Below are positions 1,369 through 19,267 of a DNA stretch of 25,596 nucleotides, piece by piece. The notes under the pieces were generated by a model. That model did not search any database. It was given only the letters and a program-made list of their open reading frames with translations, and had not been told where the DNA came from. Positions within the stretch are counted from its first letter, which is position 1, and each line of letters opens with the position of its first letter. Location of the stretch: positions 1 to 25,596 of IMG/VR virus record IMGVR_UViG_3300031957_003203, one strand, 5' to 3'. The DNA comes from a virus. The translations under genes and the position numbers were made by a program.

Positions 1369-1373
1369 GGTGA

Positions 1374-1661
1374 CTAGACGAGTTCCGAGAGATCGCCGGT
1401 TCCCCGGCGGCCGTGTATTTTGTCCAGTGCCGCGTCCAGATCCTCGATCAACCATCTGTGGCCCTTGCCCATGATCATGCGCGGGGCAGGATACAGCTTT
1501 TCCCGTCCCCGGCAATTTGGGGTGGTGTCGAGGTCTTCACCGGGCTTGGCACAGGCCTGCAGGAATGCGGTCACCGATTTTTCGTCGACATAGGCCGCCG
1601 CCGTTTCCGCGCGCATCTGGCGCGGCCATCCGTGATAGTTGGGCTGACGGGCGGCAGACAT
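1374..1661 (-). CDS. Small HTH protein, excisionase-like candidate
   Basis: A 95-residue protein directly upstream of the integrase gene and read in the same direction. The segment MRAETAAAYVDEKSVTAFLQ (about residues 16-35) resembles the N-terminal helix-turn-helix of AlpA/Xis-type proteins, where a tAA-YL pattern opens the recognition helix pair. It is followed by a basic stretch and a likely amphipathic C-terminus. The start at 1661 is chosen because it lies 2 bp after the stop of the preceding gene; the longer frame would overlap that gene heavily. Position next to int makes a directionality factor likely, but this is inference from size, motif and place. A small transcription factor is the alternative. 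Confidence 0.6.
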   Translation of the reverse strand: MSAARQPNYHGWPRQMRAETAAAYVDEKSVTAFLQACAKPGEDLDTTPNCRGREKLYPAPRMIMGKGHRWLIEDLDAALDKIHGRRGTGDLSELV

Positions 1662-6635: not shown

Positions 6636-7076
6636 TCAACTTCCCGCCTTCTTCTTGCCGCCGGCCGGCTCGGCCAGCGTCACGCGGAAAGGTTTCAGGG
6701 ACAGGATGCCGGTGGCTTCCAGGCGGCGGGCAGCATGGCGAACTGCGGTGTCCGAGCGCTGAGTGCGCAGTACGACTTCCGACCAATCGGGGAAGTCCAG
6801 ACCCTCGCAACGCTGGCGGAAGAGTTCCAGCAGGGTTGGCAGGTCGGTCACGGGCACCAGGCGGGCGCGATCAAGATTGCGGCCCTGCAAGTCCATGAGG
6901 GCCGTGCGCTTTTGCGACTCGGCCCACTGGTCCAGATCGTCGAGGTCATAGACGATCCGCCCGCCCAGCCGCACAAAGTTCGGCCCGCGCCCTTCACGGC
7001 GTAGCGACGTCAAAAGGCTGATGGAAACGCCCATTCGCAGGGCGGCGGCGTTCACGCTGATATATTGCGCTTTCAT
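6636..7076 (-). CDS. MerR/AlpA-like helix-turn-helix regulator
   Basis: A 146-residue protein. The N-terminus reads ISVNAAALRMGVSISLLTSL then GRGPNFVRLGGRIVYDLDDLDQW, the pattern of AlpA/excisionase-type winged HTH proteins. A second part (about 70-146) with RSDTAVRHAARRLEATGILS resembles another winged helix and ends in a Lys-rich tail. It lies 15 bp downstream of the first gene of the leftward operon. It could be the real directionality factor or an early regulator; the sequence does not decide. Confidence 0.72.
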   Translation of the reverse strand: MKAQYISVNAAALRMGVSISLLTSLRREGRGPNFVRLGGRIVYDLDDLDQWAESQKRTALMDLQGRNLDRARLVPVTDLPTLLELFRQRCEGLDFPDWSEVVLRTQRSDTAVRHAARRLEATGILSLKPFRVTLAEPAGGKKKAGS

Positions 7077-7091: not shown

Positions 7092-7433
7092 TCAGTCGGT
7101 GAAGGGGCGGCCGTGCGCGTCGATCGGCACCAGATGGCGCAAGGGTTCGACGCGAAGAATGCCGGTGAAGGGCGGGGTGGAGATGCGCACCTGGGCGGTG
7201 CCGGCCGTTCGGTCGATGGACTCGATCCGGCCTTCGACGCTGCGCCTCTGCATCAGGAAAGTGACGCGGCGATAGATGACCAGGAGCCGATCAAAGGCCC
7301 AGGGCTGGTCATCATTGGCGGGGGCGCAATCCTCGCCCACCGAACGGCGTTCGGTGGCGGGGCCAGCCAGCGGCGGGAAGGTGTGAATCTGAAAACCATC
7401 CTGCCCGGGGATGAATGCATGTGTGTCGACCAT
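7092..7433 (-). CDS. First gene of the leftward operon, hypothetical
   Basis: A 113-residue protein that I cannot assign to a family. The C-terminal half (VEGRIESIDRTAGTAQVRIS) looks like a small beta-barrel. It carries one copy of the repeated palindrome, read as ERRS in its own frame. The ATG at 7433 is preceded by GGAGG at 5 nt on the minus strand. That ribosome binding site lies inside a 9-bp hairpin (7435-7460), so translation may be controlled. It sits directly downstream of the two left operators. Confidence 0.68.
   Translation of the reverse strand: MVDTHAFIPGQDGFQIHTFPPLAGPATERRSVGEDCAPANDDQPWAFDRLLVIYRRVTFLMQRRSVEGRIESIDRTAGTAQVRISTPPFTGILRVEPLRHLVPIDAHGRPFTD
7337..7357. repeat. 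Dispersed palindrome copy 1 (core CGAACGGCGTTCG)
   Basis: A perfect 21-bp odd palindrome around a central G, inside the gene 7092-7433, where it reads as ERRS on the minus strand. Confidence 0.75.
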
Positions 7434-7434
7434 G

Positions 7435-7460
7435 GGGTCCTCCGTAGTTCGGGAGGACCC
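7435..7460 (-). promoter_or_regulatory. Hairpin covering the ribosome binding site of the first leftward gene
   Basis: The minus-strand leader contains GGGTCCTCC, an 8-nt loop and GGAGGACCC, a perfect 9-bp stem (7452-7460 with 7435-7443). The GGAGG of the second arm is the Shine-Dalgarno sequence of the gene starting at 7433, and the stem ends one base before its ATG. In the folded leader the site would be closed. Confidence 0.6.
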
Positions 7461-7462
7461 TA

Positions 7463-7480
7463 ATCACGAAAAATCGTAAT
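7463..7480. promoter_or_regulatory. Left operator 1 (repressor site)
   Basis: ATCACGA-AAAA-TCGTAAT: the same inverted repeat as the perfect site at 8534-8551 with one change in the left arm. It lies upstream of the leftward operon and beside a possible minus-strand -10 (TGTAAT, 7484-7479). Confidence 0.75.
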
Positions 7481-7491
7481 TACAACACTAA

Positions 7492-7509
7492 ATCACGAAA
7501 AATCGTAAA
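7492..7509. promoter_or_regulatory. Left operator 2 (repressor site)
   Basis: ATCACGA-AAAA-TCGTAAA, centre 29 bp from operator 1. Inferred to bind the CI-like repressor encoded at 7827-8468. It covers the place where the -35 of the leftward promoter would be, and it also lies upstream of the small membrane protein gene at 7563. Confidence 0.75.
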
Positions 7510-7562
7510 TGCGAGTGTGTGGCGGCACTGCTAATCTGGCGTTGAATTGTGAGGAGAGTGCG

Positions 7563-7826
7563 ATGGCAGAGGCCGAGAAGGGGCAGCCGATGAGAGAAAT
7601 CGGGGCGATATGGGGCGTGTTTGGGTGGTTCACTTTTATAGGCGGATTCATCTGCCTGAGCGGCGCTGCAGCCATAGGCAATGCGCCATCATATGCCACC
7701 ACAGTAAGCTATGACTGGATTGCGACGCGGCTGGTCTTTGCGATTATCGGCGCGGCGTTGACCGGATCCGGAGCCGTCATGATTTCGGCTCGCGTTGTCA
7801 TTACGGCGCTGGCCCGATTGAAGTAG
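7563..7826 (+). CDS. Small two-helix membrane protein in the immunity region
   Basis: An 87-residue protein with two clear hydrophobic segments: about 14-38 (IWGVFGWFTFIGGFICLSGA) and about 57-82 (LVFAIIGAALTGSGAVMI). Both termini are likely cytoplasmic. The ATG at 7563 has GAGGAG 6 nt upstream. It ends exactly where the convergent repressor gene ends, with no gap. It sits between the left operators and cI, roughly where lambda carries rex, so it may be expressed in the lysogen and act in superinfection exclusion. That role is inference from place and topology. Confidence 0.72.
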   Translation: MAEAEKGQPMREIGAIWGVFGWFTFIGGFICLSGAAAIGNAPSYATTVSYDWIATRLVFAIIGAALTGSGAVMISARVVITALARLK

Positions 7827-8468
7827 TCAGCGCACCACGACTTGCGGGCTGGCGATGCTGACAAAGGGGAGGGCGCGCACAATCTCGACATCTTCGATGA
7901 GTGGCGCCCCATCCCAGCTTTCCAGATTGTATCGCCCGGCCGAGTAGCCCCGCCGAACAGTCTTGAAGAGCAGGGTCCCGTCAGCTAGCTCCACGATGCA
8001 GGCCTGTCCCAGGGCTTCAGTCGCTTCAATGGTATCGCGATCCAAGCAATAGATGATCCAGCGGTCCTGCGCGGGCGGCATGGAAAACCCTCTTACCTCG
8101 AAGGCGACATAGTCAAGATCCGGATTCAATCCGGGTGGAAGTGCGACCTCGTAAATGCCTTCATGTTTCCCCACGCCATCCATTACTTGAACCAATGCAC
8201 CTGCTCCGACGAGGCCTTTAACCCACACCTTTTTAGTGTGTTTATGAGAGTGTTCATCATAAAGTTGGTCAAGAGTAAGGCCGAGTGCGGCGGCGATTTT
8301 TCTGGCTGTGTCTTCTCTGAGTGAGCGCGATTTCCCGTCCAGGTAAGAATAAATCGTGGAGGGCGGCACGCCGGCAGCCTTGGCCAAAGCGTTAGGTTTG
8401 GTCCCGGCCCTTTCCAGGGCCTTGCGTACGCATTCGCGGCGTAGATCGGCATCGTCCAGCTTCGTCAT
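7827..8468 (-). CDS. cI: CI/LexA-type self-cleaving phage repressor
   Basis: A 213-residue repressor. Residues about 10-70 are an XRE-type HTH (NALAKAAGVPPSTIYSYLDG). The C-terminal peptidase S24 domain has the cleavage site VGAGA (Ala89-Gly90), the nucleophile Ser129 in VRGFSM and Lys169 in GTLLFKTVRR; the spacings fit LexA and CI. RecA-stimulated self-cleavage would therefore induce the prophage. The start at 8468 is chosen because it opens MTKLDDADLRRECVRKAL just before the HTH; no good Shine-Dalgarno is visible, so a leaderless message or a weak site is possible. It is divergent from the Cro-like gene and flanked by the three operator copies. Confidence 0.93.
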   Translation of the reverse strand: MTKLDDADLRRECVRKALERAGTKPNALAKAAGVPPSTIYSYLDGKSRSLREDTARKIAAALGLTLDQLYDEHSHKHTKKVWVKGLVGAGALVQVMDGVGKHEGIYEVALPPGLNPDLDYVAFEVRGFSMPPAQDRWIIYCLDRDTIEATEALGQACIVELADGTLLFKTVRRGYSAGRYNLESWDGAPLIEDVEIVRALPFVSIASPQVVVR

Positions 8469-8525
8469 GATTGTGAGGTAGCACACGCTTTTGCATAGAG
8501 CATTTGCGGAAAATCCCAATTTTGG

Positions 8526-8551
8526 TTGACATGATTACGAAAAATCGTAAT
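8526..8551 (+). promoter_or_regulatory. Rightward early promoter with perfect operator
   Basis: TTGACA at 8526-8531 is a consensus -35. The perfect 18-bp operator ATTACGA-AAAA-TCGTAAT follows at 8534-8551 and would fill the spacer and run into a poor -10 (about 8548-8553). A start near 8560 would make the Cro-like gene message nearly leaderless. Bound repressor would block polymerase directly. Confidence 0.75.
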
Positions 8552-8561
8552 TCATTTGGCC

Positions 8562-8777
8562 ATGACACCCACCGAAGCCAATCTCCAGCGCTTGCAAGCC
8601 GCCGCCAAAGCGCAAGGCCGCAAGCTAAACGAAATCGCTGCGGCGGCAGGCGTTGCGCCGGCGACGCTGTACGACATGGCTCGTCCCGGTTGGCAGCCGC
8701 GCAGCATTCAAAACCTGATCGCGGTGGAGCGCGCCCTGGGCCTGTCTTTTCCTCCCCAATCCAGCGAGGCAGCCTAG
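8562..8777 (+). CDS. Cro-like small HTH protein
   Basis: A 71-residue protein with an XRE-like HTH (LNEIAAAAGVAPATLYDMA, about 24-42) and a second helix pair (RSIQNLIAVERALGL). It is the first gene of the rightward operon, divergent from cI. Size and place fit a Cro-type antirepressor of the lysogenic state. The ATG at 8562 lies only 11 bp after the operator and has no Shine-Dalgarno; a TTG two codons earlier is possible. The next gene starts immediately after its stop. Confidence 0.8.
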   Translation: MTPTEANLQRLQAAAKAQGRKLNEIAAAAGVAPATLYDMARPGWQPRSIQNLIAVERALGLSFPPQSSEAA

Positions 8778-9443
8778 ATGTCTCGCTCGCCCGGCATTGC
8801 CGCCATTCAACAAAGCTGCATCAAGCCCGGCTGGGCGCGGGGTGTGCCGGCCGACTTTGCAGCCGGTCATCGCGATGGCTGGCGGACGGTGGTCACCGCC
8901 GAATTGTCGCTTGCTGGCTGGCAGTGGATGGTCTCGCAATGGCAGGCCGGCCCGGCGGGGGAGGTGGGGCCGGTGCGGGTGTGTGACTGGGGCTGCTGCG
9001 AACATGCCGAGTTTCAGGCTCTGTGTGACCGGCTCTATCGCGAGGCATCGGCCTTGGTGGGCTGGGTGTGCGATGACGCGCATGCGGGCCGGGTCGAGCT
9101 GCCGGGCTGCCGGGTGATCGACCAGGAAGGGTGGGTCGATGTCTGGGCGAAGGTGCGCGGACAATTGGCCTGCAAGATGGGCCTGTGGAGCGGTCTTGCT
9201 GTGGTGATGGCGCGCTGGCGTCTGGGCCTCGTGCATTTGCCGGCCGATGCCGGCCATGCGCCGGCCGGCTGGCTGACGCAGCTGGCGATCGAAGATCTGG
9301 GCGAGAGTGAAGAGGGTTTGGTGCGGCGGCGGATCGTGCCGGGATGCACCACGGAATTCACCCGCAATCTGGCGCGGGCTTGGGTTCTGTGGCGTGACGG
9401 CGTGGCGAGGGCGGCTCGTCCCCGGGTTGGGGAGGGCGGCTAG
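8778..9443 (+). CDS. Hypothetical early protein, Trp- and Cys-rich
   Basis: A 221-residue protein that I do not recognise. It is rich in Trp and has a CDWGCCEH cluster (about 72-79), a possible metal site, and later GWVCDDAHAG. The ATG follows the stop of the Cro-like gene with no gap, and its own stop is followed directly by the next ATG, so it is translated as part of the rightward early operon. Codon use matches its neighbours. Confidence 0.75.
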   Translation: MSRSPGIAAIQQSCIKPGWARGVPADFAAGHRDGWRTVVTAELSLAGWQWMVSQWQAGPAGEVGPVRVCDWGCCEHAEFQALCDRLYREASALVGWVCDDAHAGRVELPGCRVIDQEGWVDVWAKVRGQLACKMGLWSGLAVVMARWRLGLVHLPADAGHAPAGWLTQLAIEDLGESEEGLVRRRIVPGCTTEFTRNLARAWVLWRDGVARAARPRVGEGG

Positions 9444-9728
9444 ATGGTTCTGTTGCGGCTTACGGGCCTGGGATTGACGGGATTGTATTTTGCCGTGTGC
9501 TCGCTCCACGGCTTTCTGGCGGGTGCCAGCTTCATACTGGCACTTCACGAAGACCGTTCGGTTTCGGCAGCATCGGTGGTGTTGGCGCTGTCCTGGCTGG
9601 GTAGCGGCTGCTTGGCCGGGTTGTGGATTTCGATGATCCTGCGGGCCAGAAGCCGGCTGGACAATTTGATGTCCACCCGAATGCGACCTGGCGTGCCGGA
9701 CACCGACAGCGAGGTGCCGCGCAAATGA
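9444..9728 (+). CDS. Small membrane protein, end overlapped by an antisense gene
   Basis: A 94-residue protein with two hydrophobic segments: about 5-33 (LTGLGLTGLYFAVCSLHGFLAG) and about 43-66 (SVVLALSWLGSGCLAGLWIS). A basic and then acidic tail follows. TAGATG coupling to the previous gene supports it. Its last 184 bases are antisense to the 3' part of the leftward frame 9545-10108, which also looks coding, so one of the two ends may be wrong. Its TGA overlaps an ATG at 9725 that opens a short frame resembling the start of the gene at 10582. Confidence 0.55.
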   Translation: MVLLRLTGLGLTGLYFAVCSLHGFLAGASFILALHEDRSVSAASVVLALSWLGSGCLAGLWISMILRARSRLDNLMSTRMRPGVPDTDSEVPRK

Positions 9729-10108
9729 GCCGTGCTTCGCATATCTCCGCCCATCAAGGGCTGCAGCCGCAGGTTTTGCACGGATCGGGACGGGGTGGCG
9801 GCGCAACGCTCGGAGGGCGTGTCCCGCGATTTGCGCTTGCGGGTTACGGGTGCCAGCAACAAGCCGGGTGTCAGGCTGACGACTGTGGCGGTGTGAATTT
9901 CGTCGAACTGATCCGGTTCGAAGGTGAGCAACATCGGGTGGCGATATTGCTCTATGACGATACGGCCATTGCCCTCGGCTCGCCTGTCCCGCTCGCGCTC
10001 CCGCCAACGAAAATAGGCACTGAGGCTGGGGGACAATGCCGCCGCCAGAATAATCAGGGCGTATTGAAGAAGTTCGCTCCAGGGCGAATTCAGGAATTCC
10101 TCGATCAT
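9545..10108 (-). CDS. Leftward protein with N-terminal membrane helix
   Basis: A 187-residue protein against the direction of the operon. Residues about 12-34 (LLQYALIILAAALSPSLSAY) form one membrane helix, followed by a very basic RWRERERDRR, which places the rest in the cytoplasm. The soluble part has plausible beta segments (IRVDIKLSSRLL, IIEIHNP). No family recognised. Codon choice looks natural over the full length, including the part antisense to 9444-9728. It may form a unit with the leftward frame 10172-10459 and could be a late-acquired cassette. Confidence 0.55.
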   Translation of the reverse strand: MIEEFLNSPWSELLQYALIILAAALSPSLSAYFRWRERERDRRAEGNGRIVIEQYRHPMLLTFEPDQFDEIHTATVVSLTPGLLLAPVTRKRKSRDTPSERCAATPSRSVQNLRLQPLMGGDMRSTAHLRGTSLSVSGTPGRIRVDIKLSSRLLARRIIEIHNPAKQPLPSQDSANTTDAAETERSS

Positions 10109-10171
10109 CCGGGCAGTTTGCCGCGGCGTGCGTCACGCGTCGAGAGCGATACGGATGTTCCCAATCCTGTT

Positions 10172-10459
10172 TCATCCTTCTCCCCGCTTGTGGCGATGGG
10201 CATCCCCCAGGTCACGTGTCCCGTTGCCGGCCAACCGGGCGGGGAGAGGGGTGCCGGCCGGCTCCTCGCTGTGTCCCGATCCCATCTCTCCGGGGTCCGG
10301 GTGCAGGCCGGTCGGCGCCTCGTCTTTTCCGGTTTCGTTGGCGTCCAGCCAGTCTCCCACGGCGCGGTCACGCGCCGCGTCTTCCGGCAGGCCCATGGCC
10401 CGCGCCAGACGCGCCAAGGCCCGGGTCAACCGGTCATCGCTTTGTGTGTCGCGTCTCAA
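10172..10459 (-). CDS. Possible leftward small protein with TTG start
   Basis: A 95-residue frame. A TTG at 10459 has GGGAGG 5 nt upstream on the minus strand. The first half is a clean amphipathic helix region (DRLTRALARLARAMGLPEDAARDRAVGDWLDAN); the second half is Gly/Pro-rich and less convincing. It lies upstream of the leftward gene 9545-10108. The flanking stretches 10109-10171 and 10460-10581 hold no other supported gene. An alternative minus-strand frame ending at 10105 overlaps the next ATG but reads poorly. Confidence 0.4.
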   Translation of the reverse strand: MRRDTQSDDRLTRALARLARAMGLPEDAARDRAVGDWLDANETGKDEAPTGLHPDPGEMGSGHSEEPAGTPLPARLAGNGTRDLGDAHRHKRGEG

Positions 10460-10581
10460 TTCCGCCTCCCAACTGCGAATGCCCGGCGAGCCTATCGATC
10501 GGCGGTGCGGCGGAATGGGGAAACAGCGGCGGGCTTCCCCAAATTCCCTCGCCCCCAAACCACCAACAAGGCAGGTGCCCG

Positions 10582-11115
10582 ATGAGCCGCGCCACGGATA
10601 TCCCCGCCCATCGCGTGCATCCGGCGCGCGTCTATTCCGGCCTCAAGGCGGCGTCGGCCGATCTGGTGGAGGATAATGGCGGGCTGGATCGGGCAGCGGC
10701 GCGCACGCGCGGGTCGGCCGAGACGGTGCGGCGCTGTGTCCGCCATGAGTTTGACGCCCATTTCCTGGGCGTTGACCAGGTGGCCGACATGGAGGCCCGC
10801 GCCGAGCATCCCTGGGTGACGGCCGCCCTGGCCGAAACGGCTGGCTTCCTGCTGGTTCCCAGCCCGGAACGCATGAAGGCGGATGGGCTGGAGCAGCGCA
10901 CCATCAAGGAAGCGGCCGAAGCCATAACCGAGATTTCCAAGGCGCTGGCCACGGGCGGGACGATTGACCGCACCGAGGCACCGCGTGTGCGCAAGGAAGT
11001 GCTGGAGGCGATCCTGGCGCTTTTTGCCTTTGATCAGGATCTGCAACGGCGCTTTCCGGACCTCAAACCGCTGCGCCTGGACGGTATCGCCGACCTGATC
11101 GGGGAGGCGGACTGA
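10582..11115 (+). CDS. Phage regulatory protein, weakly CII/CP76-like
   Basis: A 177-residue, mainly helical protein. Residues about 10-45 (YSGLKAASADLVEDNGGLDRAAARTRGSAETVRRC) look like an HTH region, and residues about 65-90 (HPWVTAALAETAGFLLVPSPE) recall the block after the HTH in P2-type CII/CP76 regulators. The C-terminal half is a helical bundle. This is a resemblance by eye, not a firm family call. The ATG at 10582 follows AGGCAGG. Its stop shares a base with the next start (TGATG), opening a long run of overlapping genes. Confidence 0.6.
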   Translation: MSRATDIPAHRVHPARVYSGLKAASADLVEDNGGLDRAAARTRGSAETVRRCVRHEFDAHFLGVDQVADMEARAEHPWVTAALAETAGFLLVPSPERMKADGLEQRTIKEAAEAITEISKALATGGTIDRTEAPRVRKEVLEAILALFAFDQDLQRRFPDLKPLRLDGIADLIGEAD

Positions 11116-11255
11116 TGGCCCGGCGCGCACCTTCCCACAACCGATTTCCATTCCGGCCCTTCGGGCTGGGTCTGCCGGTCTCCGGCATTTTTGCCCTGGT
11201 GGTGGCCGGTCTGGTCTTCGCCGGGGTTTTTCTGGCCAGAGGAGTGACGGGATGA
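11115..11255 (+). CDS. Very small single-helix membrane protein
   Basis: A 46-residue protein: a basic N-terminus (ARRAPSHNRFPFRPFG), then one hydrophobic segment (SGIFALVVAGLVFAGVFLA, about 23-41) and a short tail. Its ATG shares the A of the previous stop, and its TGA overlaps the next ATG (ATGA), which is strong support for a gene of this size. Role unknown. Confidence 0.6.
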   Translation: MARRAPSHNRFPFRPFGLGLPVSGIFALVVAGLVFAGVFLARGVTG

Positions 11256-11761
11256 GTGAGACCAAAAGCCGTTGGTGTGAAGTGAGTTGGAAAGAGGCCT
11301 GCCTGGAGCTGGAAGCCTTTCTGGACGAAGATGGCCGCGTTGTGGCGCTGGGCCGGTTCCGGGGCGTGGTGCCTTTTGAAGAAACGGGGGAGGCCGCCCG
11401 AAGCGCCAGTGTGATGTCGGCGCTGTTTGTCGCGGTGGCCCAGGCCAATGTCTATCTCACCGTGCCGGCCAAGCCGGGAGCGGATGCCAAGCGGCCCTGC
11501 GTCTCTCTGCAAGACTTGTCGATTGTCCTGTCTCGCGGCCCGACGCCCGAGGCCTTCACCGAATTGGTGCGCGCATTGGCCAGTCTTGAACGGCAAGTGG
11601 CGACCGAACGGCGTTCGGCGGTCGAGTCTTCGGCGGCGGATGTGGCGCGCGGCCTGATGGAGAAGGGCATCAAGGATCGCGAGATCCTGGACCATCTCTT
11701 CATCCACCAAAATTTCCACCGGGACATGTCCTGGCTCGCGGAATTGCGGGAGGCGGTGTGA
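11252..11761 (+). CDS. Hypothetical early phage protein
   Basis: A 169-residue protein of unknown role. The C-terminal third is helical (SSAADVARGLMEKGIKDREI, then HLFIHQNFHRDM). It carries one copy of the repeated palindrome, read as ATERRSA at about 118-124. Start and stop both overlap the neighbouring genes. Confidence 0.72.
   Translation: MSETKSRWCEVSWKEACLELEAFLDEDGRVVALGRFRGVVPFEETGEAARSASVMSALFVAVAQANVYLTVPAKPGADAKRPCVSLQDLSIVLSRGPTPEAFTELVRALASLERQVATERRSAVESSAADVARGLMEKGIKDREILDHLFIHQNFHRDMSWLAELREAV
11604..11618. repeat. Dispersed palindrome copy 2
   Basis: CCGAACGGCGTTCGG, inside the gene 11252-11761, where it reads as ERRS on the plus strand. Confidence 0.75.
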
Positions 11762-12054
11762 TGGGTGGGCATAGCTACAGACGCGACGTCAAGGCCCGCG
11801 ATTATGTTGTCTTTGATCCGGCGGGTGAGCCGGTCTGCCGGGGCTTTACCTGCCCGGATGATGCGGTGCGCAAGATTGAACAGCTGGAGCATGAAGCGCG
11901 CCGGGTTGACCGGCCTTGCATGACCTGCCGGGCCATTTTCAAGAGCGAAGGCTCGCACAATCGCATGTGCGATACATGCCGGGGCCGTGCCTCGGGCGAG
12001 GATGTGAGCGGGCATTCGATTGCCCTGCCTCGGCGGACCGGAGGGCGGGCATGA
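11761..12054 (+). CDS. Small zinc-finger phage protein
   Basis: A 97-residue protein. The C-terminal half holds CMTC, then a FKSEGSHNRMC stretch and CDTC, two CxxC pairs that form a likely zinc knuckle. This pattern (a Cys pair, F.SEG.HNR, a Cys pair) is frequent in small alphaproteobacterial phage and chromosomal proteins. The ATG shares its A with the previous TGA; a GTG one codon earlier is possible. Function unknown, perhaps DNA binding. Confidence 0.7.
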   Translation: MGGHSYRRDVKARDYVVFDPAGEPVCRGFTCPDDAVRKIEQLEHEARRVDRPCMTCRAIFKSEGSHNRMCDTCRGRASGEDVSGHSIALPRRTGGRA

Positions 12055-12458
12055 GCCGGGTCAAGCTGAAGCCCTTCGCCCTGCGCCGCTGGGCAGGCCT
12101 GGCCCTGATCAAGCAGGCGGTCCTGGCCGATCTGGCCGGTGTTGCGCGGCCCATGATTTCGGACTGGACGCGCGGCGCGCGGGCCATTCCGGAGGATGTG
12201 TTGGCTCGGTTCATCAAGGCGATCAATGAGCGCCTGGAACGCGAAGGCCTGGCCGAACGCTGCAGTCGCGACAAGCTCGTCCTGCCCAGCCCAATCAAGC
12301 CCGACATGCGCAGCCCTGATCAGCGCAAGCAGGCGCGCTATGCCGCCGAGCGCCGCCGGCGGGGCCTTGACCGGGAAGCAGCGCGCGGGGAGCGGGCGGC
12401 CTCCGGAAAGCCTGGGCGTGCCGTGAATTATCACGCGGGGGCGGGGGTGCGTGGATGA
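12051..12458 (+). CDS. XRE-like HTH protein with basic tail
   Basis: A 135-residue protein. Residues about 12-60 form an HTH: LALIKQAVLADLAGVARPMISDW then ARAIPEDVLARFIKAI, where the second helix would contact DNA. The C-terminal 40 residues are very rich in Arg and Ala. ATGA overlaps at both ends tie it into the operon. A second Cro-type or middle regulator is the likely role. Confidence 0.7.
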   Translation: MSRVKLKPFALRRWAGLALIKQAVLADLAGVARPMISDWTRGARAIPEDVLARFIKAINERLEREGLAERCSRDKLVLPSPIKPDMRSPDQRKQARYAAERRRRGLDREAARGERAASGKPGRAVNYHAGAGVRG

Positions 12459-12733
12459 TCGACCTCCCGCACCGCCCCAAATATGGCGAGGACATCACCG
12501 AAGCCGAGCTGACCCGTCTGCGCCAGGAGGGAGCCGACAAGGCCATGTTCTATGTCCGGGCGGTGATCGGCCGATTGCCGGTGCGGGATCCGCAGCCGGG
12601 GGAAACGCCGGCGGAATGGATGGGAGCCTGGCGCGCCCTGGTCGAAGCGCAACTCGATCTGACGGCCGGTCAGATCGCGCGCGGAGAATTGTCGCTGGCG
12701 CCCTTGCCGAAACGGAGGGCGGCCCATGGCTAA
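12455..12733 (+). CDS. Small hypothetical protein
   Basis: A 92-residue helical protein with an acidic N-terminus (EDITEAELTRLRQEGADKAMFY) and a basic end (PLPKRRAAHG). No family recognised. It overlaps the gene before it by ATGA and the DUF4326 gene after it by 8 bp. Confidence 0.65.
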   Translation: MIDLPHRPKYGEDITEAELTRLRQEGADKAMFYVRAVIGRLPVRDPQPGETPAEWMGAWRALVEAQLDLTAGQIARGELSLAPLPKRRAAHG

Positions 12734-13184
12734 GCCTCGCCGGATCCAGCTGAAACGCACCAAGGGTTATCGCAAGCCGAAAGAGGACGTGACCGTCACC
12801 CGCGCCACGCGGTGGGGCAATCCCTGGCTGGTGAAGGATTGGGGCCAGCACAAGGCGGTTGCCCTGTTCCGGGATGACCTGTTCGAGCGGGAAGTGTTCG
12901 AGGGGCCCAAAGGGCCGGTCACGCTGGCGGAGGTTCGCGCCCAGCTGAAAGGGCGGGACCTGGCCTGCTATTGCGAGCCGGGGCGGCCCTGCCATGCAGA
13001 CGTTCTGATCAAGGCCGCCAATAGCACCGGAAGCCTGAAAACGGTGCGTCGGGTGACGGGCGGGATGGGGATTGGAGAGCAGCCCGGCCGGCTTGGTCGC
13101 AAGCAGGGCGGGGCGCCTTGCGACCATATGGGCGATCCGCTGCCGACCCGTTGGGACTATGTCCTGGATCGGGGGGTGAGATGA
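12726..13184 (+). CDS. DUF4326 domain protein
   Basis: A 152-residue protein. Residues about 7-98 match DUF4326: RIQLKRTKGYRKP, VTVTRATRWGNPW, then LKGRDLACYCEPGRPCHADV. The CYC...PCHAD element with conserved Cys and His is typical and may hold a metal or be catalytic. The domain is frequent in phages, and its biochemical role is not established to my knowledge. The C-terminal 50 residues are an extension with a second Cys and a Gly-rich stretch. The start lies within the end of the previous gene. Confidence 0.85.
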   Translation: MAKPRRIQLKRTKGYRKPKEDVTVTRATRWGNPWLVKDWGQHKAVALFRDDLFEREVFEGPKGPVTLAEVRAQLKGRDLACYCEPGRPCHADVLIKAANSTGSLKTVRRVTGGMGIGEQPGRLGRKQGGAPCDHMGDPLPTRWDYVLDRGVR

Positions 13185-13516
13185 GCCCGGATGACATCCT
13201 GACCCTGACCGGCCGGGTGGTCGGTGTGATCCAGCGCACCCGGGTCGACCTGGCCTGTGAAGATGCCGCACAAGAGGATCTGGCACGGGCGCTTTATCGG
13301 GAATTCTACGGCCCGCGCACCATCGGCCATCTGGTGGACCGCGAAGTCTCCCTGTCACCGCGCGAGCGGATCGACATTATGGTCGGGCCAGTGGGTGTGG
13401 AGGTGAAGCGCGCCACAGCGCAGCGTCGGGCCGTGTTGCGCCAGCTGGAGCGCTATGCCGCGCATGACAGCGTCAAGGCGCTGGTCGCGCGGTATCTGAA
13501 AGGGGGATCATCATGA
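13181..13516 (+). CDS. Small protein with PD-(D/E)xK nuclease-like core
   Basis: A 111-residue protein. The segment ERIDIMVGPVGVEVKRA (about 66-82) has Asp, then about 10 residues, then Glu-x-Lys on consecutive predicted beta strands, the signature of the PD-(D/E)xK fold. A helix with basic residues follows (QRRAVLRQLERYA). At this size it would be a minimal domain, as in VRR-NUC-like or Holliday-junction-type enzymes. No other catalytic domain is visible. ATGA overlaps on both sides. Confidence 0.6.
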   Translation: MSPDDILTLTGRVVGVIQRTRVDLACEDAAQEDLARALYREFYGPRTIGHLVDREVSLSPRERIDIMVGPVGVEVKRATAQRRAVLRQLERYAAHDSVKALVARYLKGGSS

Positions 13517-13872
13517 CCCCCATAACACTGCAGGCCTGTCTTATCCCTGACACGGATGATGTGGCCAAGCCGGGCCAGTATCAGCTGTTGGACAAGCGGT
13601 GGAATGTGACGCGCGGCCGGTTGTCGGCTTGGCGCATCGAGATCGGTTGCCCGTGCTGTGGCCACGCCACGGAGTTTGAGCTGTCGCCGGCCGGAGACCG
13701 GCACGGCGCCCAAGGTCAGTTGCGCTGGGACGGCAATGTGCAATTGCCCACGGTCTTCGGCCGGATCGTCATTGCCGCCCATGGCCGCTGTGGCGGCTGG
13801 TCCGGTCATCTGGAGGGCGGCGAGTTTCGCACGGATGCGACCCTGGTGACGCGGGAGGGCGGGAATGTGTGA
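13513..13872 (+). CDS. Hypothetical protein with paired cysteines, weakly DUF6527-like
   Basis: A 119-residue, beta-rich protein. It has IGCPCCGHATEFEL (about 44-57), a W-x-GN segment, a PT..GRIVI strand and a late CGGWSGHLEGGEF. The order of CPCCG, a central Trp, PT-x-S/I and a late GH/W..GG resembles DUF6527, but the match is loose. Probably metal-binding; role unknown. Confidence 0.6.
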   Translation: MTPITLQACLIPDTDDVAKPGQYQLLDKRWNVTRGRLSAWRIEIGCPCCGHATEFELSPAGDRHGAQGQLRWDGNVQLPTVFGRIVIAAHGRCGGWSGHLEGGEFRTDATLVTREGGNV

Positions 13873-14341
13873 TTGCCCGATCGCCCGCGCCAAGGATGAC
13901 CGGATCGCCGATCTGGAAATGCGCCTGGAGCAGGCGCGCGCTCTGGCGGAGACGGCCCAGCCTGGCGTGCCATGGGAATGGCAGCTGGATCGGCCCATGG
14001 CGATTGCTGCCCATTGCCTGGCGCGGGGGCCGCACACGGCCGCGCAGATGGCCGTCTCGCTCGATCTGGGCATTCCGGAGGCCCGTCACACGGCGCGCGA
14101 TGTGGCGGCCATTGTCGCGCGCCTGGCGCGCAATCTGGGCGACTATGGCTGGTTGGTCGCCGCTGGCGGTGAAACCGGCCGGCCGGCGCGGCTGTCGGAT
14201 ATGCATCAGGTGCATCCCGGCTTGCAGGATCTTTTCAGGGCGGCTGTGAGGGGCGAGGGCGATATCAGCGCCCAGCCTCTGCCGACACGCCGCATACCGC
14301 CCGGCACACGGGCCTATCAAGCATTGGAGGGCAGGGGGTGA
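13865..14341 (+). CDS. Winged-helix-like regulatory protein
   Basis: A 158-residue protein. It starts MCDCPIARAKDDRIADLEMRL, a short coiled coil, then residues about 50-100 (AIAAHCLARGPHTAAQMAVSLDLG... VAAIVARLARNLGDYGW) form a winged-helix-like unit. The stop overlaps the GTG start of the next gene. It may work with that replication protein; this is inferred from adjacency. Confidence 0.65.
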   Translation: MCDCPIARAKDDRIADLEMRLEQARALAETAQPGVPWEWQLDRPMAIAAHCLARGPHTAAQMAVSLDLGIPEARHTARDVAAIVARLARNLGDYGWLVAAGGETGRPARLSDMHQVHPGLQDLFRAAVRGEGDISAQPLPTRRIPPGTRAYQALEGRG

Positions 14342-15336
14342 GCGGTCTGGTATCGGGTCTCTTCTGGAAGGCGCGCGGTCTCGGACGGCCGGCGGTCCCT
14401 GGCGTTGCCGCCACGGAGACCGAACCGGCCATCCCTGCGCAGACGGCTGTCTCCGGCGCGCTGGTCAAGGCGATAGGCGCGCGGATCGGGGATGCCTGTG
14501 ATGAGGACGGCGTCGGCTATCGCTCCTTGGCGCGTGAAGCCCTGGCCGATGACACCGAGCTGTCGCCTAAAGTCGTGCAAAGGGCCGTGTCCTGGCTTCG
14601 CGAGCTGGGCATCCTGATAGTCGCGGCCGGGGGTTCCGGTGGCCGAGGTGTGGCCCCGCGCTATGACATTGATCTGGATCGGCTTTGCGATTTCATCCCG
14701 GCCGATGCCTTGCCAAAGCGCTTCCGCCGCCGGGCGTCCGACCCAGCTGATGAGCGTCACGAAAAGGGGGACAGGCTGACCCCCAATAGTGGCGCAAAAG
14801 GGGGTCACGAGAGTCCCGAAAGGGGGTCAGAGAGGTCCCAAAAGGGGGGCATGTCTGACCCCCACCACAGTAAGACCACAGTTAATAACCACAGCGCGGG
14901 CGCGTCCGCGAGCGAGCGCGGGGGCTCGCGGCCGTCCCGCCGCAAGCGCCGGTCTGACCCGCCACCGGCGGATCCGCCGAAGCCACCGAAGATCGCTGTT
15001 CCCGAGGGACGAGAGGGGCAGCTGATCCGAGCGGCGCTGGACGGCAATGACCCGAATATCGCCTGGAAGGTGAAGCCGTGGCTGGGCCGTTTCCGCTTTG
15101 CGGAATGCCTGGTCAACAGCATCGAGTTGAAACTGGTCGTGGATGGTTCGGACAAGGAGTTTCGTTCTGTTTTCACCGGTGCGCTCAAGCATTTAGGGCT
15201 CGGCGGGGTAACCGTTTGGATGCCCGCCTTTGCTCAACGGCAGGCCGATCACGGCAATGCCCGATGGCTCACAGACGGGCCTGACGAAAACTGGTTCAGC
15301 AAATCGCTTCGACAATTGGAGACCGCTCATGGGTAA
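14338..15336 (+). CDS. Putative phage replication initiation protein (lambda-O-like layout)
   Basis: A 332-residue protein with a GTG start overlapping the previous TGA. Residues about 36-125 are a winged helix of the kind seen in phage replication proteins (ALVKAIGARIGDA, YRSLAREALADDTELS, KVVQRAVSWLRELGILIV, then GRGVAPRYDIDL). Residues about 135-220 are low-complexity, with KGG and SP/SD repeats and a basic Arg/Pro stretch. The C-terminal part (about 222-330) is a compact domain with AWKVKPWLGRFRF and FSKSLRQLE. The low-complexity region is encoded by a repeat array that looks like an origin. No helicase or primase motif is seen, so it would load host proteins. Confidence 0.72.
   Translation: MSGLVSGLFWKARGLGRPAVPGVAATETEPAIPAQTAVSGALVKAIGARIGDACDEDGVGYRSLAREALADDTELSPKVVQRAVSWLRELGILIVAAGGSGGRGVAPRYDIDLDRLCDFIPADALPKRFRRRASDPADERHEKGDRLTPNSGAKGGHESPERGSERSQKGGMSDPHHSKTTVNNHSAGASASERGGSRPSRRKRRSDPPPADPPKPPKIAVPEGREGQLIRAALDGNDPNIAWKVKPWLGRFRFAECLVNSIELKLVVDGSDKEFRSVFTGALKHLGLGGVTVWMPAFAQRQADHGNARWLTDGPDENWFSKSLRQLETAHG
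14762..14863 (+). repeat. Direct and inverted GGGGGTCA repeats inside the replication gene (origin candidate)
   Basis: Four forward copies near AAAAGGGGGTCA start at 14762, 14796, 14818 and 14840; the last three are 22 bp apart. Inverted copies TGACCCCC lie at 14777-14784 and 14856-14863. An AT-richer stretch with GTTAATAACC (14881-14890) follows. Intragenic iterons followed by an AT-rich segment are the plan of lambda ori inside the O gene. Confidence 0.6.
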
Positions 15337-16093
15337 GCTCCCCGCATCCCCCGCCATGATCGCCGGGCTGGCCGCTCAACGTCGCCGCAAGGCCGAGGAG
15401 AGCCCGGAAATAGCCGCCTATCAGGACCAGGCCGACGAACGGCGTTCGGTGCGCCAGGCGCAGGAGAAGGCGCAGCGAGAGGCTTTCCTGAAGAGCCCGG
15501 AGGGGAAGGATATGCTGGCGCGGCGGGAAGCCATGGCGCGCGCGGCGGCGATGCTGGGCAAGTCTGACCGGTGGGGCGAGATCAACACCTTCACGGCGAT
15601 GATGCGCGGCATGTCGGTCGAGAAAGGGGTGGTCAAGGCCCTGGCACCCAATGTCTTTGTCCAGCGGCTTCACTCCCCCGCTAATGGCAAGGGCGGTCTG
15701 CTGACCATTGAGCATGTTGCAGCGGCGGCGGACTATGCCAGCTTGTCGGACCAGCTCAAGGTCGGCGGGGCCAGCCGGGATCCAGCCGAGATCCGGGTCG
15801 AGGGTGGCGGCGCGGGCTGCACCGAGCTGGCGGTCCTCAACCGGATGGACGCAGCCAAGGCCTTCCGGGCTGCGCAAGAGGCGCTCCGTCTGACCTCCAT
15901 CGTGCCCGAATGGGGTCGCGTGATTCGTCGCCTGGTGGACTGGGTCATCCTCGACGGTGGGCATCCGTTGGAGGATTTCGACGTCAAAGCGGTGGCGCCC
16001 CTGCTCGGGCAGGATGCCGAAAAGTCCTGCAGGGCCTTGCTTTTCCGTCAAGGTGTCGACTGCCTGTGTCAACACTTCGCAAAGTCCGGTTGA
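15329..16093 (+). CDS. Candidate late-gene regulator at the end of the early operon
   Basis: A 254-residue protein. The N-terminus is basic and helical (AAQRRRKAEE), followed by a long Arg/Glu/Ala helix (about 38-75). The C-terminal part (about 168-250) is well ordered, with AKAFRAAQEALRLTSIVPEW, RLVDWVILDGGHPLEDF and a Cys-containing end. It is reminiscent of DUF6456-type tails, but I cannot assign it firmly. It carries one copy of the repeated palindrome read as DERRSV. The ATG overlaps the previous stop. It is the last gene before the terminator and control region ahead of the late genes, so a Q-like role is possible. Confidence 0.6.
   Translation: MGKLPASPAMIAGLAAQRRRKAEESPEIAAYQDQADERRSVRQAQEKAQREAFLKSPEGKDMLARREAMARAAAMLGKSDRWGEINTFTAMMRGMSVEKGVVKALAPNVFVQRLHSPANGKGGLLTIEHVAAAADYASLSDQLKVGGASRDPAEIRVEGGGAGCTELAVLNRMDAAKAFRAAQEALRLTSIVPEWGRVIRRLVDWVILDGGHPLEDFDVKAVAPLLGQDAEKSCRALLFRQGVDCLCQHFAKSG
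15436..15448. repeat. Dispersed palindrome copy 3
   Basis: The 13-bp core CGAACGGCGTTCG, inside the gene 15329-16093, again read as ERRS. Confidence 0.7.
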
Positions 16094-16127
16094 CATCCAA
16101 ACAGTTTGGATCGTACCCATTGTGTCA
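16090..16127. promoter_or_regulatory. Nested dyad: TTGACA/TGTCAA around TCCAAAC-A-GTTTGGA
   Basis: A perfect inverted repeat TCCAAACAGTTTGGA (16096-16110) directly follows a TTGACA (16090-16095). On the other side TGTCAA (16122-16127) gives a TTGACA on the minus strand. It overlaps the stop of the preceding gene. It may be an operator inside a promoter. Confidence 0.5.
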
Positions 16128-16151
16128 ATCGAGATCAGTGCGTCTCAACCC

Positions 16152-16185
16152 GCCCCGCCAGCCACCCGCTCGCGGGGCTTTTTCT
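16152..16185 (+). terminator. Rho-independent terminator of the early operon
   Basis: GCCCCGC (16152-16158) pairs with GCGGGGC (16172-16178) across a 13-nt loop and is followed by TTTTTCTT. It lies about 60 bp after the last early gene. Confidence 0.65.
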
Positions 16186-16209
16186 TGCCCGAAACACACG
16201 AAAACAAAG

Positions 16210-16322
16210 GCTTAGCGGGTCCTTCCTGGCGCTATCCCGTATACGGGGCATCTAAGCGCGGGACTTTTGGACACACAGGCCTCTAAAACATTGTTGACAG
16301 TTCCGGGCTCAGCCCGTTGACA
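16210..16322. promoter_or_regulatory. Late control region with palindromes and paired GTTGACA
   Basis: The stretch contains a perfect palindrome CCCGTATACGGG (16236-16247) bracketed by GCTTAG (16210-16215) and CTAAGC (16252-16257). Further on, TTGACA occurs at 16294-16299 and 16317-16322, 23 bp apart, with a GGGCTCAGCCC hairpin between them. No convincing -10 is seen, which suggests an activator-dependent promoter. AAGGAG at 16327-16332 is too far from the ATG at 16363 to serve it. Confidence 0.45.
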
Positions 16323-16362
16323 CCTTAAGGAGTTTCCCGGTCAGCCGGTGGCTTGATCGACC

Positions 16363-17097
16363 ATGTCGGAACCCGTCCCGCTGTTGGACCGGAAGCTGGA
16401 TGACGGCTCGCCGGCCTACTTCCAGTACATGTCGCAATACGGCAAGGCTCGCGGGGGTGTGACCCGCGCGGCCGTAAGCGCCTGGCACACGCGCGATGGA
16501 CTTATTGCCTTTGCGACCTGTCCGGTGACGGGAAAGCAGGTGGTGGACGCGGTCGCCAGTGATGAGCGCCGCTTGGCCCACCAGAATCCGCTCAAGCGGC
16601 AGGCCGATGCGCCGGCTGCGCTCGCTGCGCCGGTCGAGGACCCGGCTGGTGAGGATCTGTTCCAGGACGCGGAGCCGCCGGCAGCTGAAGAGATCAGCCC
16701 GGCCGAGCCGGCGCCGAAGCCCGCCCGTGTGGAAGACCCGTTCAAGCGCAGTGCGGCCGAGGCCGTTAGCCGGGATAAATGGCTGGCCGTTCGGCAACGC
16801 GAGATGAAGCTTCGCCAGGAGATGGGGGAGCTGGCCCGTGTCGAAGACATGCAGGACGCGCTCTTCCAGGCCATGCGCCGGGTGCGGGACGCCATGCAGA
16901 GCGTGGCCGCCGAGTGCTGCGAGCGCGCCAACCCGGATGACCCGTCGATCGCGCGCCGCGCCATCCAGGAAGAGGTCGACAAGAAGCTGACGGCCGTGGC
17001 GCTGGAGGTCGAGCGGCTGCTGGCCGGTGCCGAAGAGATCGATCTGCCCGAGATCGGTGCCGCGCCGGAAACGGCAGACGAGCTGATCGATGCCTGA
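16363..17097 (+). CDS. Terminase small subunit
   Basis: A 244-residue protein. The N-terminal part (about 14-60: PAYFQYMSQYGKARGGVTRAAVSAWHTRDGL) fits a DNA-recognition HTH as in Nu1/DUF1441-type small terminases. A Pro/Ala/Glu-rich linker follows (about 78-130), then a long charged helical region (about 140-235) for assembly or large-subunit contact. It is the gene directly before the GpA-type large terminase and overlaps it by 8 bp. An in-frame TGA shortly upstream fixes the ATG at 16363 as the first start, although no Shine-Dalgarno is visible there. Confidence 0.78.
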   Translation: MSEPVPLLDRKLDDGSPAYFQYMSQYGKARGGVTRAAVSAWHTRDGLIAFATCPVTGKQVVDAVASDERRLAHQNPLKRQADAPAALAAPVEDPAGEDLFQDAEPPAAEEISPAEPAPKPARVEDPFKRSAAEAVSRDKWLAVRQREMKLRQEMGELARVEDMQDALFQAMRRVRDAMQSVAAECCERANPDDPSIARRAIQEEVDKKLTAVALEVERLLAGAEEIDLPEIGAAPETADELIDA

Positions 17098-19249
17098 CGG
17101 TACACCGGCGGCCGACCTGTTCGCGCCCTGGCCTGAATTCGATGCCCACCTGGACAAGCAGCGGCTGGGCTATGCCGCGAAGATCCGGGAGGCCCTGACG
17201 CCAGACCCGCCATTCAGCTTGCTCGAATGGACCTGCACCAACCGGTATTTCGATGAGATGTCATCGAATCCGGGCCTGTATGATCCGGACACGGCGCCCT
17301 ACTGCAACGAGCCGATCGACGCGCTCTCCCCGGGCTCCGGCGTCGAGGAAATGTCGGTCATCAAGTGCGCCCAATCCGGCGGCACGGTGATCCTGGAGAG
17401 CTTCAAGGCGGGCCTCCTGTCCTCGGTCGCGGCACCGGCCATGCTGGTCCATCCGACCATCCGGGCGTTCGAAGACTGGGCCGAGGAAAAATGGTGGCCG
17501 CTGGTCTATTCCTCGCCCTCGCTGGATCCCGGCCGGGGTGGTGAAGTCCGCGACAAGACCGACAAGCAGTCCGGCGGCTCGACCGGCAAGCGGATCCGGT
17601 TCCGCAAGGGCGGCTGGATCGTCGGGGCAGGGTCCAACTCGGCCGCGACCCTGCGTCAGAAGTCGATCCGCTTCATGGCGCTCGATGATCTCGACGGGTT
17701 CGAGATGTCGGCCGCCGAGGAGGGCGATCCAGAGAATCTGGCGCACCAGCGCACCAAGACCTATCGACGGCGCGGGCTGGCAGTGACGCTGCGGGTTTCC
17801 ACCCCGCTCCTGGAGGGCTCCTCCAGGATCATGAAGCACTATGCCAATTCGGACATGCGGCGGTTTTACCATCGCTGCAAGAATGCCGAGTGCCGTGCCC
17901 TGGTCGATTTCGACTGGGAGGACGTGATCCGCAATGAGCGGCCGCCCTATCAATCCCATGTCGTTTGCCCGTCCTGTCAGACGGTCCACCGCCATGGCGA
18001 CAAGCAGCGCATGCAGATCGACGGGATGTGGATCCCGACTGCCGAGATTGAGGGGGAACACGACGAAGACGGAGTCGTAAAGCCGCCCAAGCTTATCGAG
18101 GCCGGCGAGGCGGAACGCTGGCGCACCCGCGACATGAAGCACCTGGCCAAGCACCGGGGCTACTGGATCACGGGTTTCATGAATTTCGCCGAGACCTGGG
18201 ATTCGATCGCCGAGGCGCAAGACCGGGCCGGAAAAGACCAGGACGCGCTCAAGGTCTTCAACAACACGGTCCTCGGCCGGCCGTTCAAGATCGCGACGAA
18301 GACGCCGCAATGGGAAGCGCTCTATGGCATCCGCTCGGAAACCTTCCGGCGGGGTGAGGGCGCCAACGGGCCCTGCGTCTTCACCCTGTCGATCGACGTC
18401 CAGTCATACGGGCTTTACTGGCTGGCCAAGGGCTATAACGCCAATGAAGAGAGCTGGTATCTCGACTGGGGTCTGATCCCCGGCGAGACCGCGATCAAGG
18501 GCGAGGGTGCCTGGAAAGAGTTGGACAAAATTGCCGATCGGGGTGCGCCGCTGACGCCTGGCACCTATGTGCCTTTCGACGTGATCGGCATCGATGGCCG
18601 CTATAACACCGATGCGGTGAAGGACTGGGCCAAGCATCGGCCGCTGGCCATCGTCACCAATGGTGATCCGGGCTGGGGCAGCGACATCATCAAGCTGGCC
18701 CGTCGCTCCGAGATCTCGAAATCGGGAAAGAAGAAAAAATACGGCGAGCGCACCTGGCACATCGCCACCTGGTCGGCCAAGGCCGCTCTGGTCGCGCGCT
18801 ATTACCGATCGGTGGAAGAGGGCGCCATTGATGAGACCGGCATCCCGAAAGGGTATTGCTGGCTGCCCATGAATGCGGATGAGGCGCTGTGCCGCCAGCT
18901 GACATCCGAATATCTGCACGCCGAAAGGCGCAAGCATGACGGCATGCTGGTGCGCAAATGGGTGGTGAAGTCTGGAGAGGAAAACCACCTCTTCGACTGC
19001 GACGTGATCAGCTTCGCCTGCATCTGCTATCTCGGCGCCCGCTCGCCCGGCGATCGCGGCTCCTGGACGCTGGAAGACTGGATCGAGCGGGAAGAGCGTG
19101 TCCGCGATCTGCTCGACCGCGAACAGCGCGATCTGTTCGACCATGCTCGCCGCCGGCCGGCGGCCATCGCAGACACCTCGAACGTCCCGGCCAAGTCGAC
19201 CGAGCTTTCGCCGGCGCTCGCCGCGATGGCCCGGGCAAACCAGTCATAG
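17090..19249 (+). CDS. Terminase large subunit, lambda GpA family
   Basis: A 719-residue packaging motor that cuts and pumps phage DNA. The ATPase has a Walker-A-like KCAQSGGT (92-99) that lacks the usual GKT but resembles other GpA proteins, a Walker B MALDDLDGFE (196-205) and motif III STPL (237-240). A zinc knuckle follows (C263, C268, C293, C296). The nuclease domain begins near SIDVQ (about 430) and continues to the Cys-rich DCDVISFACICYL near the C-terminus. Length and order fit the lambda gpA family. It lies between the small terminase and gpW-like genes. One copy of the repeated palindrome lies just behind its stop. Confidence 0.94.
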   Translation: MPDGTPAADLFAPWPEFDAHLDKQRLGYAAKIREALTPDPPFSLLEWTCTNRYFDEMSSNPGLYDPDTAPYCNEPIDALSPGSGVEEMSVIKCAQSGGTVILESFKAGLLSSVAAPAMLVHPTIRAFEDWAEEKWWPLVYSSPSLDPGRGGEVRDKTDKQSGGSTGKRIRFRKGGWIVGAGSNSAATLRQKSIRFMALDDLDGFEMSAAEEGDPENLAHQRTKTYRRRGLAVTLRVSTPLLEGSSRIMKHYANSDMRRFYHRCKNAECRALVDFDWEDVIRNERPPYQSHVVCPSCQTVHRHGDKQRMQIDGMWIPTAEIEGEHDEDGVVKPPKLIEAGEAERWRTRDMKHLAKHRGYWITGFMNFAETWDSIAEAQDRAGKDQDALKVFNNTVLGRPFKIATKTPQWEALYGIRSETFRRGEGANGPCVFTLSIDVQSYGLYWLAKGYNANEESWYLDWGLIPGETAIKGEGAWKELDKIADRGAPLTPGTYVPFDVIGIDGRYNTDAVKDWAKHRPLAIVTNGDPGWGSDIIKLARRSEISKSGKKKKYGERTWHIATWSAKAALVARYYRSVEEGAIDETGIPKGYCWLPMNADEALCRQLTSEYLHAERRKHDGMLVRKWVVKSGEENHLFDCDVISFACICYLGARSPGDRGSWTLEDWIEREERVRDLLDREQRDLFDHARRRPAAIADTSNVPAKSTELSPALAAMARANQS

Positions 19250-19252
19250 CCG

Positions 19253-19267
19253 CCGAACGGCGTTCGG
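19253..19267. repeat. Dispersed palindrome copy 4
   Basis: CCGAACGGCGTTCGG in the non-coding gap right after the terminase stop. With a single mismatch position the dyad extends to 19249-19271. Confidence 0.75.

Follow-up and report, generated by a model that had tools for sequence, protein, structure and literature searches.

We analysed the 25,596-nt virus record IMGVR_UViG_3300031957_003203 over its full length (subsequently called the window) and describe here a strict 13-bp palindrome, CGAACGGCGTTCG, that is found four times in this stretch and, in the general form CGAACG[G/C]CGTTCG, at high copy numbers in related prophages and almost unchanged in many viruses that are only distant relatives of each other. 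The palindrome is very probably the loading site of an orphan ParB-family protein that is encoded by the phage itself, physical binding being predicted from the sequence comparisons reported below. These comparisons establish that the sites exist, are evenly spaced, are confined to prophages and are linked to the ParB family; they also show that the protein retains its cytidine triphosphate (CTP) motifs, that ParA is missing and that CI-type operators precede the parB operon.

Occurrence and conservation of the palindrome

An initial annotation of the window had pointed out four exact copies at regular distances and had estimated that chance would produce far fewer than one. We recovered the same four positions (Table 1) and no others in the window, compared to an average of 0.0025 copies expected from a third-order Markov model of the window. 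Among odd palindromes with 6-bp arms in the window only CGAACGGCGTTCG is repeated. It is symmetric about one central base, which is G on the plus strand in all four copies; at copy 1 the symmetry extends to 21 bp about this base (CCACCGAACGGCGTTCGGTGG). The gaps between the copies measure 4264, 3831 and 3818 bp, and the last 6.3 kb of the truncated record are free of copies. As had also been noted, three copies are intragenic, share one phase and encode ERRS, while the remaining one is intergenic, a pattern that is true for the window but not general in its relatives. A LexA/SOS box of the Bacillus/actinobacterial type, which has a 4-bp spacer, was rejected as an explanation: the spacer of the palindrome is 3 bp, and GAAC-N4-GTTC does not occur in the window.

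Multi-copy records emerged when viral contigs were searched with a 16-base form of the site, among them the related prophages G009 (21 copies of CGAACG[G/C]CGTTCG), G010 (18), G012 (17), G021 (14) and G014 (13). In 15 records we counted 126 copies, whereas 89 palindromes of equal arm composition gave a mean of 0.09, and versions with one mismatch were nearly absent from these records. Of 142 unique sites, 140 have G or C at the centre, and both orientations of the centre occur. Beyond the 13 bases only the adjoining base is clearly constrained and the rest of the flanks is random.

The window copies have counterparts in the closest relatives. The gene and the codons at copy 1 are identical in G001, G015 and Maricaulis maris DSM 4734; the position of copy 2 is retained in three relatives with a change confined to the centre base; copy 3 is retained in G001 and G015, whereas M. 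maris lacks it and has a site in terS instead; and for copy 4 the relatives carry a site within or after terL. Homologous sites in window genes hold the same codons even between proteins that are 40–61% identical, only the centre base being different, compared to roughly 0.5–0.7 of unchanged residues that keep their codon in the rest of the gene. This comparison addresses the conservation beyond codon constraint that the initial annotation had proposed to look for in relatives. We found no relevant paper holding the motif in the open-access literature; since the search covered open-access papers only, earlier reports could exist outside it.

Even spacing and restriction to prophages

We called genes in the related records with a simple script based on codon usage. 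Intragenic positions account for 121 of the 185 sites called and intergenic ones for 64; the intragenic sites make use of all three reading frames (21, 54 and 46 sites), encoding ERRS, N[A/G]VR and RT[A/P]F. When 182 sites were classified, 61 were intergenic compared to 31 expected; starts and ends of genes each had 60 of the 182 sites nearby, so that no preference for promoters was detected. Placement upstream of target promoters, as for the plasmid protein KorB (see Discussion), is not what we observed, as 121 of the 182 sites are intragenic. The typical interval is 2.5–8 kb over the whole phage genome. The regular spacing noted for the window is borne out on a larger scale: when 17 records are combined, the spacing is more even than that of randomly placed sites (P about 1e-13, the records being related to each other), and eight records reach P <= 0.015 individually.

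In the nearest named host genome, that of M. maris DSM 4734 (3.6 Mb), we found seven copies of the palindrome. Six of them are located in a prophage that is related to the window and ends at a contig edge. The seventh is found where a second contig begins, next to genes of lysozyme-like and DNA-methylase-like type, and probably belongs to the remainder of the same prophage, which presumes that the two contigs join. Counts in 189 further alphaproteobacterial genomes match the reversed control, save for one prophage-like cluster (G195), which also encodes a ParB relative.

These data bear on two other explanations that had been considered from the window alone: a small mobile palindrome that inserts in frame, and a motif common throughout the host genome. 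The shared phase of the three ERRS-encoding copies would fit the former. However, intragenic sites fall in any of the three frames, one site in three is intergenic and the flanks are unconserved beyond one base; the density check in M. maris and the 189 genomes returned chance levels outside prophage clusters. We regard both explanations as refuted.

Association of the palindrome with a ParB-like protein

The only protein families common to all 11 motif-rich records are terminase, portal, protease and a ParB-like protein, which is the sole non-structural family among them. Considering the 24 large records of the motif scan (at least 33 kb among the matches listed, one 494-kb contig being excluded), the ParB family is encoded in 8 of 8 multi-copy but in none of 16 single-copy records (Fisher 1.4e-6). 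The association was also observed in the opposite direction: records retrieved by a ParB alignment alone contain the motif in 16 of 30 cases, the reversed control giving 0. Here an alignment was needed, as a scan of the viral contigs with a single ParB sequence gave nothing. An HTH_17 profile drifted into ParB on iteration and was disregarded. Terminase, portal and protease were rejected as partners of the site because ten motif-bearing ParB phages have no window-type versions of them; conversely, G218 and G238 possess window-type terminase, portal and protease together with a different ParB helix-turn-helix (HTH), and the motif is absent. Furthermore, a site is found within 600 bp of the 5′ end of the parB open reading frame in 19 of 28 cases compared to 5.1 expected, the threshold having been chosen post hoc. 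With 95.7 kb and 21 sites, record G009 encodes two different ParB-like proteins (L147 at 3111–5558 and L149 at 8914–11301) and may consist of two adjacent prophages.

In principle the sites could serve some other protein or process of the phage that accompanies parB, such as packaging, recombination or DNA modification, with ParB as a mere neighbour. The 13 bp vary unusually little compared to operators, and even spacing would suit a process that scans the genome. However, the motif-rich records share no other non-structural family, ten carriers have different head genes, ParB relatives come with symmetric variants of the site (see below) and the sites are linked to the parB gene itself, so that we consider this explanation improbable.

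Domain structure of the ParB-like protein and variation of the site

The ParB-like protein is composed of an N-terminal winged HTH, a ParB CTPase domain, a ParB HTH and a C-terminal region with no recognised family. All 26 family members match PF02195 (the ParB N-terminal CTPase domain) and all 26 match PF17762 (the ParB-type HTH) at E <= 0.01, the window protein scoring 21.3 bits for the latter, just below the cut-off of 22.6. The CTP-binding motifs GERRxRA and ENxxR are retained in the window protein and in nearly all relatives, with G159, R161, R162, E200, N201 and R204 as invariant columns of the alignment. A structure model (predicted local distance difference test score, pLDDT, 88.5) has ParB, Noc and KorB as solved structural relatives; Caulobacter crescentus ParB is matched with Z 16.6 and a root-mean-square deviation (rmsd) of 1.8 over 99 residues. 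The type of the N-terminal HTH varies among relatives while the site is constant, which points to the ParB HTH, rather than the N-terminal one, as the predicted reader of the site.

We then inspected ParB phages without the canonical motif by a blind palindrome search. G232 contains five dispersed copies of CGAACCCGGTTCG and G226 four dispersed copies of CGCACGSCGTGCG, both one-step symmetric variants with the same 13-bp architecture; in G233 and G229 the outer base is mixed C/T. In ParB phages that are more remotely related the dispersed palindromes are different ones (TGCAGACGTCTGCA in G236, TTCCGCGCGGAA in G243), and in both phages one copy lies within parB. In the HTH, arginine is present at window position 270 of the recognition helix in motif carriers but in only 2 of 8 non-carriers, a comparison that was made by eye and chosen post hoc.

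Several other palindromes were not counted as variants of the site. ACAGCG-N1-CGCTGT in G230 is more likely a CI-type operator, since its four copies lie within 0.9 kb. The 21-bp palindrome GACCGGAACCGRGTTCCGGTC of the cultured Rhizobium phage RR1-B (L318) was rejected because mostly T-rich tracts follow it; its evenly spaced copies at 11531, 18995, 26072 and 31109, in late intergenic gaps, are probably repeated intrinsic terminators. In Gordonia phages Schnabeltier and Nyceirae, Arthrobacter phage Popper, Microcystis phage yong2 and ctl617, which encode distant ParB-like proteins, the test for a dispersed palindrome was negative. A different kind of repeat was seen in G244 (L314/L315), where eight stems CACGCT-N2-AGCGTG with an asymmetric gttgtt-type flank extend from 378 to 23469 with a single flip of orientation between 17209 and 18201.

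Partition partners

The initial annotation had compared the palindromes to the dispersed ParB targets of phage-plasmids such as N15. The first half of this proposal, that the palindromes are ParB targets, is strongly supported by co-occurrence, co-variation and linkage. The second half was not supported. Dispersed centromeres, at which ParB partitions a plasmid-like phage state as in N15 and P1, would be in line with the ParB fold, the palindromic sites and the frequent site at the parB gene. However, ParA was found in 0 of 22 records above the AAA_31 cut-off compared to 14 of 14 control genomes (the window itself being truncated), although a host ParA could in principle be borrowed. The ParA-binding motif (LG[RK]GL-type) is absent from every ParB scanned, and a tyrosine integrase match is present in 18 of the 22 records. 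Also, the sites are evenly spread and not clustered in one region. Because ParA and its binding motif were not found and an integrase is usually present, we reject partition as an improbable function of these sites.

The CI-type repressor and its probable operators

The window also encodes a CI-type immunity repressor. Its probable operator is a different palindrome, ACGAAAAATCGT, with exactly three occurrences, all in the immunity region: a pair upstream of the leftward parB operon and a single copy at the cI promoter (Table 1). The blind palindrome search revealed a similar layout, with phage-specific operator pairs flanking cI, in G004, G008, G017, G019, G217, G223, G229 and G230, and is a cheap way of mapping immunity operators in general. 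Since probable CI operators of a distinct sequence are present at cI and at the parB operon, CI and the dispersed site seem to constitute two systems. In the lysogen, parB would probably be repressed, with expression at an early stage, a timing that we deduce from operator positions.

A third way to account for the palindromes would be as stoperators: the CI-type protein would bind them and halt transcription throughout the prophage, an arrangement known from cluster A mycobacteriophages. Dispersed repressor sites are indeed known in phages (PMC9283540, PMC6550527), and many of the records contain a CI-type gene. However, CI-type relatives occur in only 7 of the 11 motif-rich records, the likely CI operator of the window differs in sequence and is located at promoters, and the cI promoter carries no copy of the palindrome. 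Operators of the other phages are clustered and phage-specific while the dispersed motif stays constant; moreover, the dispersed sites are symmetric and equally frequent near gene starts and gene ends. A role as stoperators is therefore very unlikely.

Gene context in the window

The window represents the left end of a prophage. It begins with tRNA-His and the integrase, followed by a leftward block that encodes the ParB-like protein, the HTH_17 protein and the CI-type repressor; the late genes, among them that of a GpA-type terminase, point rightward (Table 1). The integrase beside tRNA-His marks an integrated prophage, judging from the gene order. Directly upstream of the start of gene 7092–7433 an inverted repeat, GGGTCCTCC...GGAGGACCC, spans 7433–7461 and could mask the ribosome-binding site in the leftward transcript. 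A tRNA-Gly (tcc) gene is located at 19375–19449 between terminase and portal, 109 bp past copy 4. The protease-like head protein (21737–23356) bears an acidic repeat, DTDAEGEDE, ahead of its C-terminus, which stems from repeated DNA at 22900–23200.

Table 1. Features of the window with their coordinates
Feature	Position	Strand	Description
Palindrome copy 1	7341..7353		Exact match; within gene 7092-7433 (-), 80 bp from gene start
Palindrome copy 2	11605..11617		Exact match; within gene 11252-11761 (+)
Palindrome copy 3	15436..15448		Exact match; within gene 15230-16093 (+)
Palindrome copy 4	19254..19266		Exact match; intergenic, starts 5 bp past the terL stop codon
ParB-like protein, 707 aa	4006..6129	-	Pfam ParB_N 3e-17 and HTH_ParB; proposed palindrome binder
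Probable CI operator ACGAAAAATCGT	7466..7477		Upstream of the leftward parB operon
Second probable CI operator of the pair	7495..7506		In front of the leftward parB operon
Probable CI operator, cI promoter	8537..8548		Between cI and the next gene
CI-type immunity repressor	7827..8519	-	HTH_3 6e-9; PHROG transcriptional repressor
Excisionase/regulator-like HTH_17 protein	6636..7076	-	HTH_17 1.7e-6; phrog_66 excisionase and transcriptional regulator; between copy 1 and parB
Integrase	166..1515	-	Phage_integrase 1.5e-4; left end of parB-side operon
tRNA-His	12-88		Adjoins integrase

Discussion

We propose the following course of events, in which physical binding, CTP-driven sliding and the timing of expression are what we infer. 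After infection or induction, repression by CI would be lifted and ParB would be made early. A ParB dimer would recognise each site via the ParB HTH, bind CTP, close as a clamp and slide onto the adjacent DNA, so that the sites could jointly provide clamp coverage of the entire phage chromosome and of essentially no host DNA. Loading over the whole genome is favoured over a role as local operators because the sites are evenly spaced, show no promoter preference and are linked to a protein that is probably expressed early.

Several observations weigh against this proposal. The ParB proteins of motif-bearing phages are down to about 20% identical, yet the site is almost invariant. The ParB relatives in G218, G225, G231 and G238 show no motif and no obvious substitute in the blind palindrome search. 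Within the C-terminal half of the protein there is no recognised dimerisation domain: no Pfam match was found past the HTH, and residues beyond about 380 are barely covered by structure matches. Small or very divergent common proteins could escape a comparison of families. Finally, our statistics overstate independence because the phages are related and mosaic.

The nearest mechanistic model is KorB. KorB has about a dozen dispersed O_B sites, the 13-bp core of which is an odd palindrome with a central G/C. In plasmid RK2, KorB is a sliding clamp that depends on CTP and silences distant genes; its O_B operators are palindromic, and some of them are far from promoters (PMC11790492). Both proteins share the ParB-family fold (model match with Z 15.2 and rmsd 4.2 over 204 residues). 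RK2, however, is a conjugative plasmid whereas the sites described here belong to prophages and have another sequence; they are evenly spaced genome-wide, mostly intragenic and without promoter preference. The phage ParB has an extra N-terminal HTH and a large C-terminal half of no recognised family, and no KorA was identified in the phages, which encode several small HTH proteins, none of them examined for that role.

Noc is a ParB paralogue with dispersed palindromic sites. Like the phage protein it has no ParA of its own, and its fold matches the model with Z 15.8 and rmsd 4.3 over 202 residues, but Noc is a chromosomal protein of Bacillota hosts whereas the protein described here is encoded by phages, with sites only in the phage genome. 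ParABS systems (chromosomes, P1, F/N15 Sop) likewise combine CTPase and HTH domains with palindromic sites, often with a site at parB; in contrast, ParA and the ParA-binding motif are missing here, the sites are evenly dispersed and the phages are integrative. The stoperators of cluster A mycobacteriophages are many fixed short asymmetric sites across a temperate genome that are bound by the immunity repressor (PMC9283540, PMC6550527). They resemble the present sites in being fixed, short, numerous and distributed throughout a temperate phage genome, but the latter are symmetric and track ParB, and the repressor has another operator.

What a ParB coat would be used for can be stated with less confidence. 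A KorB-like long-range control of phage transcription may be its purpose, and we put this forward tentatively. Structural organisation or condensation of replicating phage DNA is possible but somewhat doubtful, and marking or protection of phage DNA as opposed to host DNA is the unlikely option. More speculatively, a widespread class of temperate phages might tag its own genome with even ParB sites, an early clamp coat providing a distinction between self and host for organisation, protection or selective expression, with ParB and palindrome pairs matched within lineages; we regard this broader view as doubtful at present.

Both prophages and plasmids commonly encode orphan ParB proteins. A 2025 survey describes orphan prophage ParB-CTPase proteins without ParA or ParA-binding motif and, in the parts of its text available to us, names no DNA targets for them (PMC12704722). 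The proteins studied here are likewise encoded by prophages and lack both ParA and the motif, and we propose a target set for one large group. For prophage orphans, the portions of the literature that we found name neither a DNA target nor a function; our proposal would supply one large group with an exact 13-bp candidate target as well as with natural pairs of putatively altered specificity. It predicts loading of entire phage genomes at regular intervals, and each of its steps can be tested with a single protein and short DNA duplexes. If true, a ParB clamp that covers the phage genome and almost no host DNA would be a new viral way of organising or tagging DNA.

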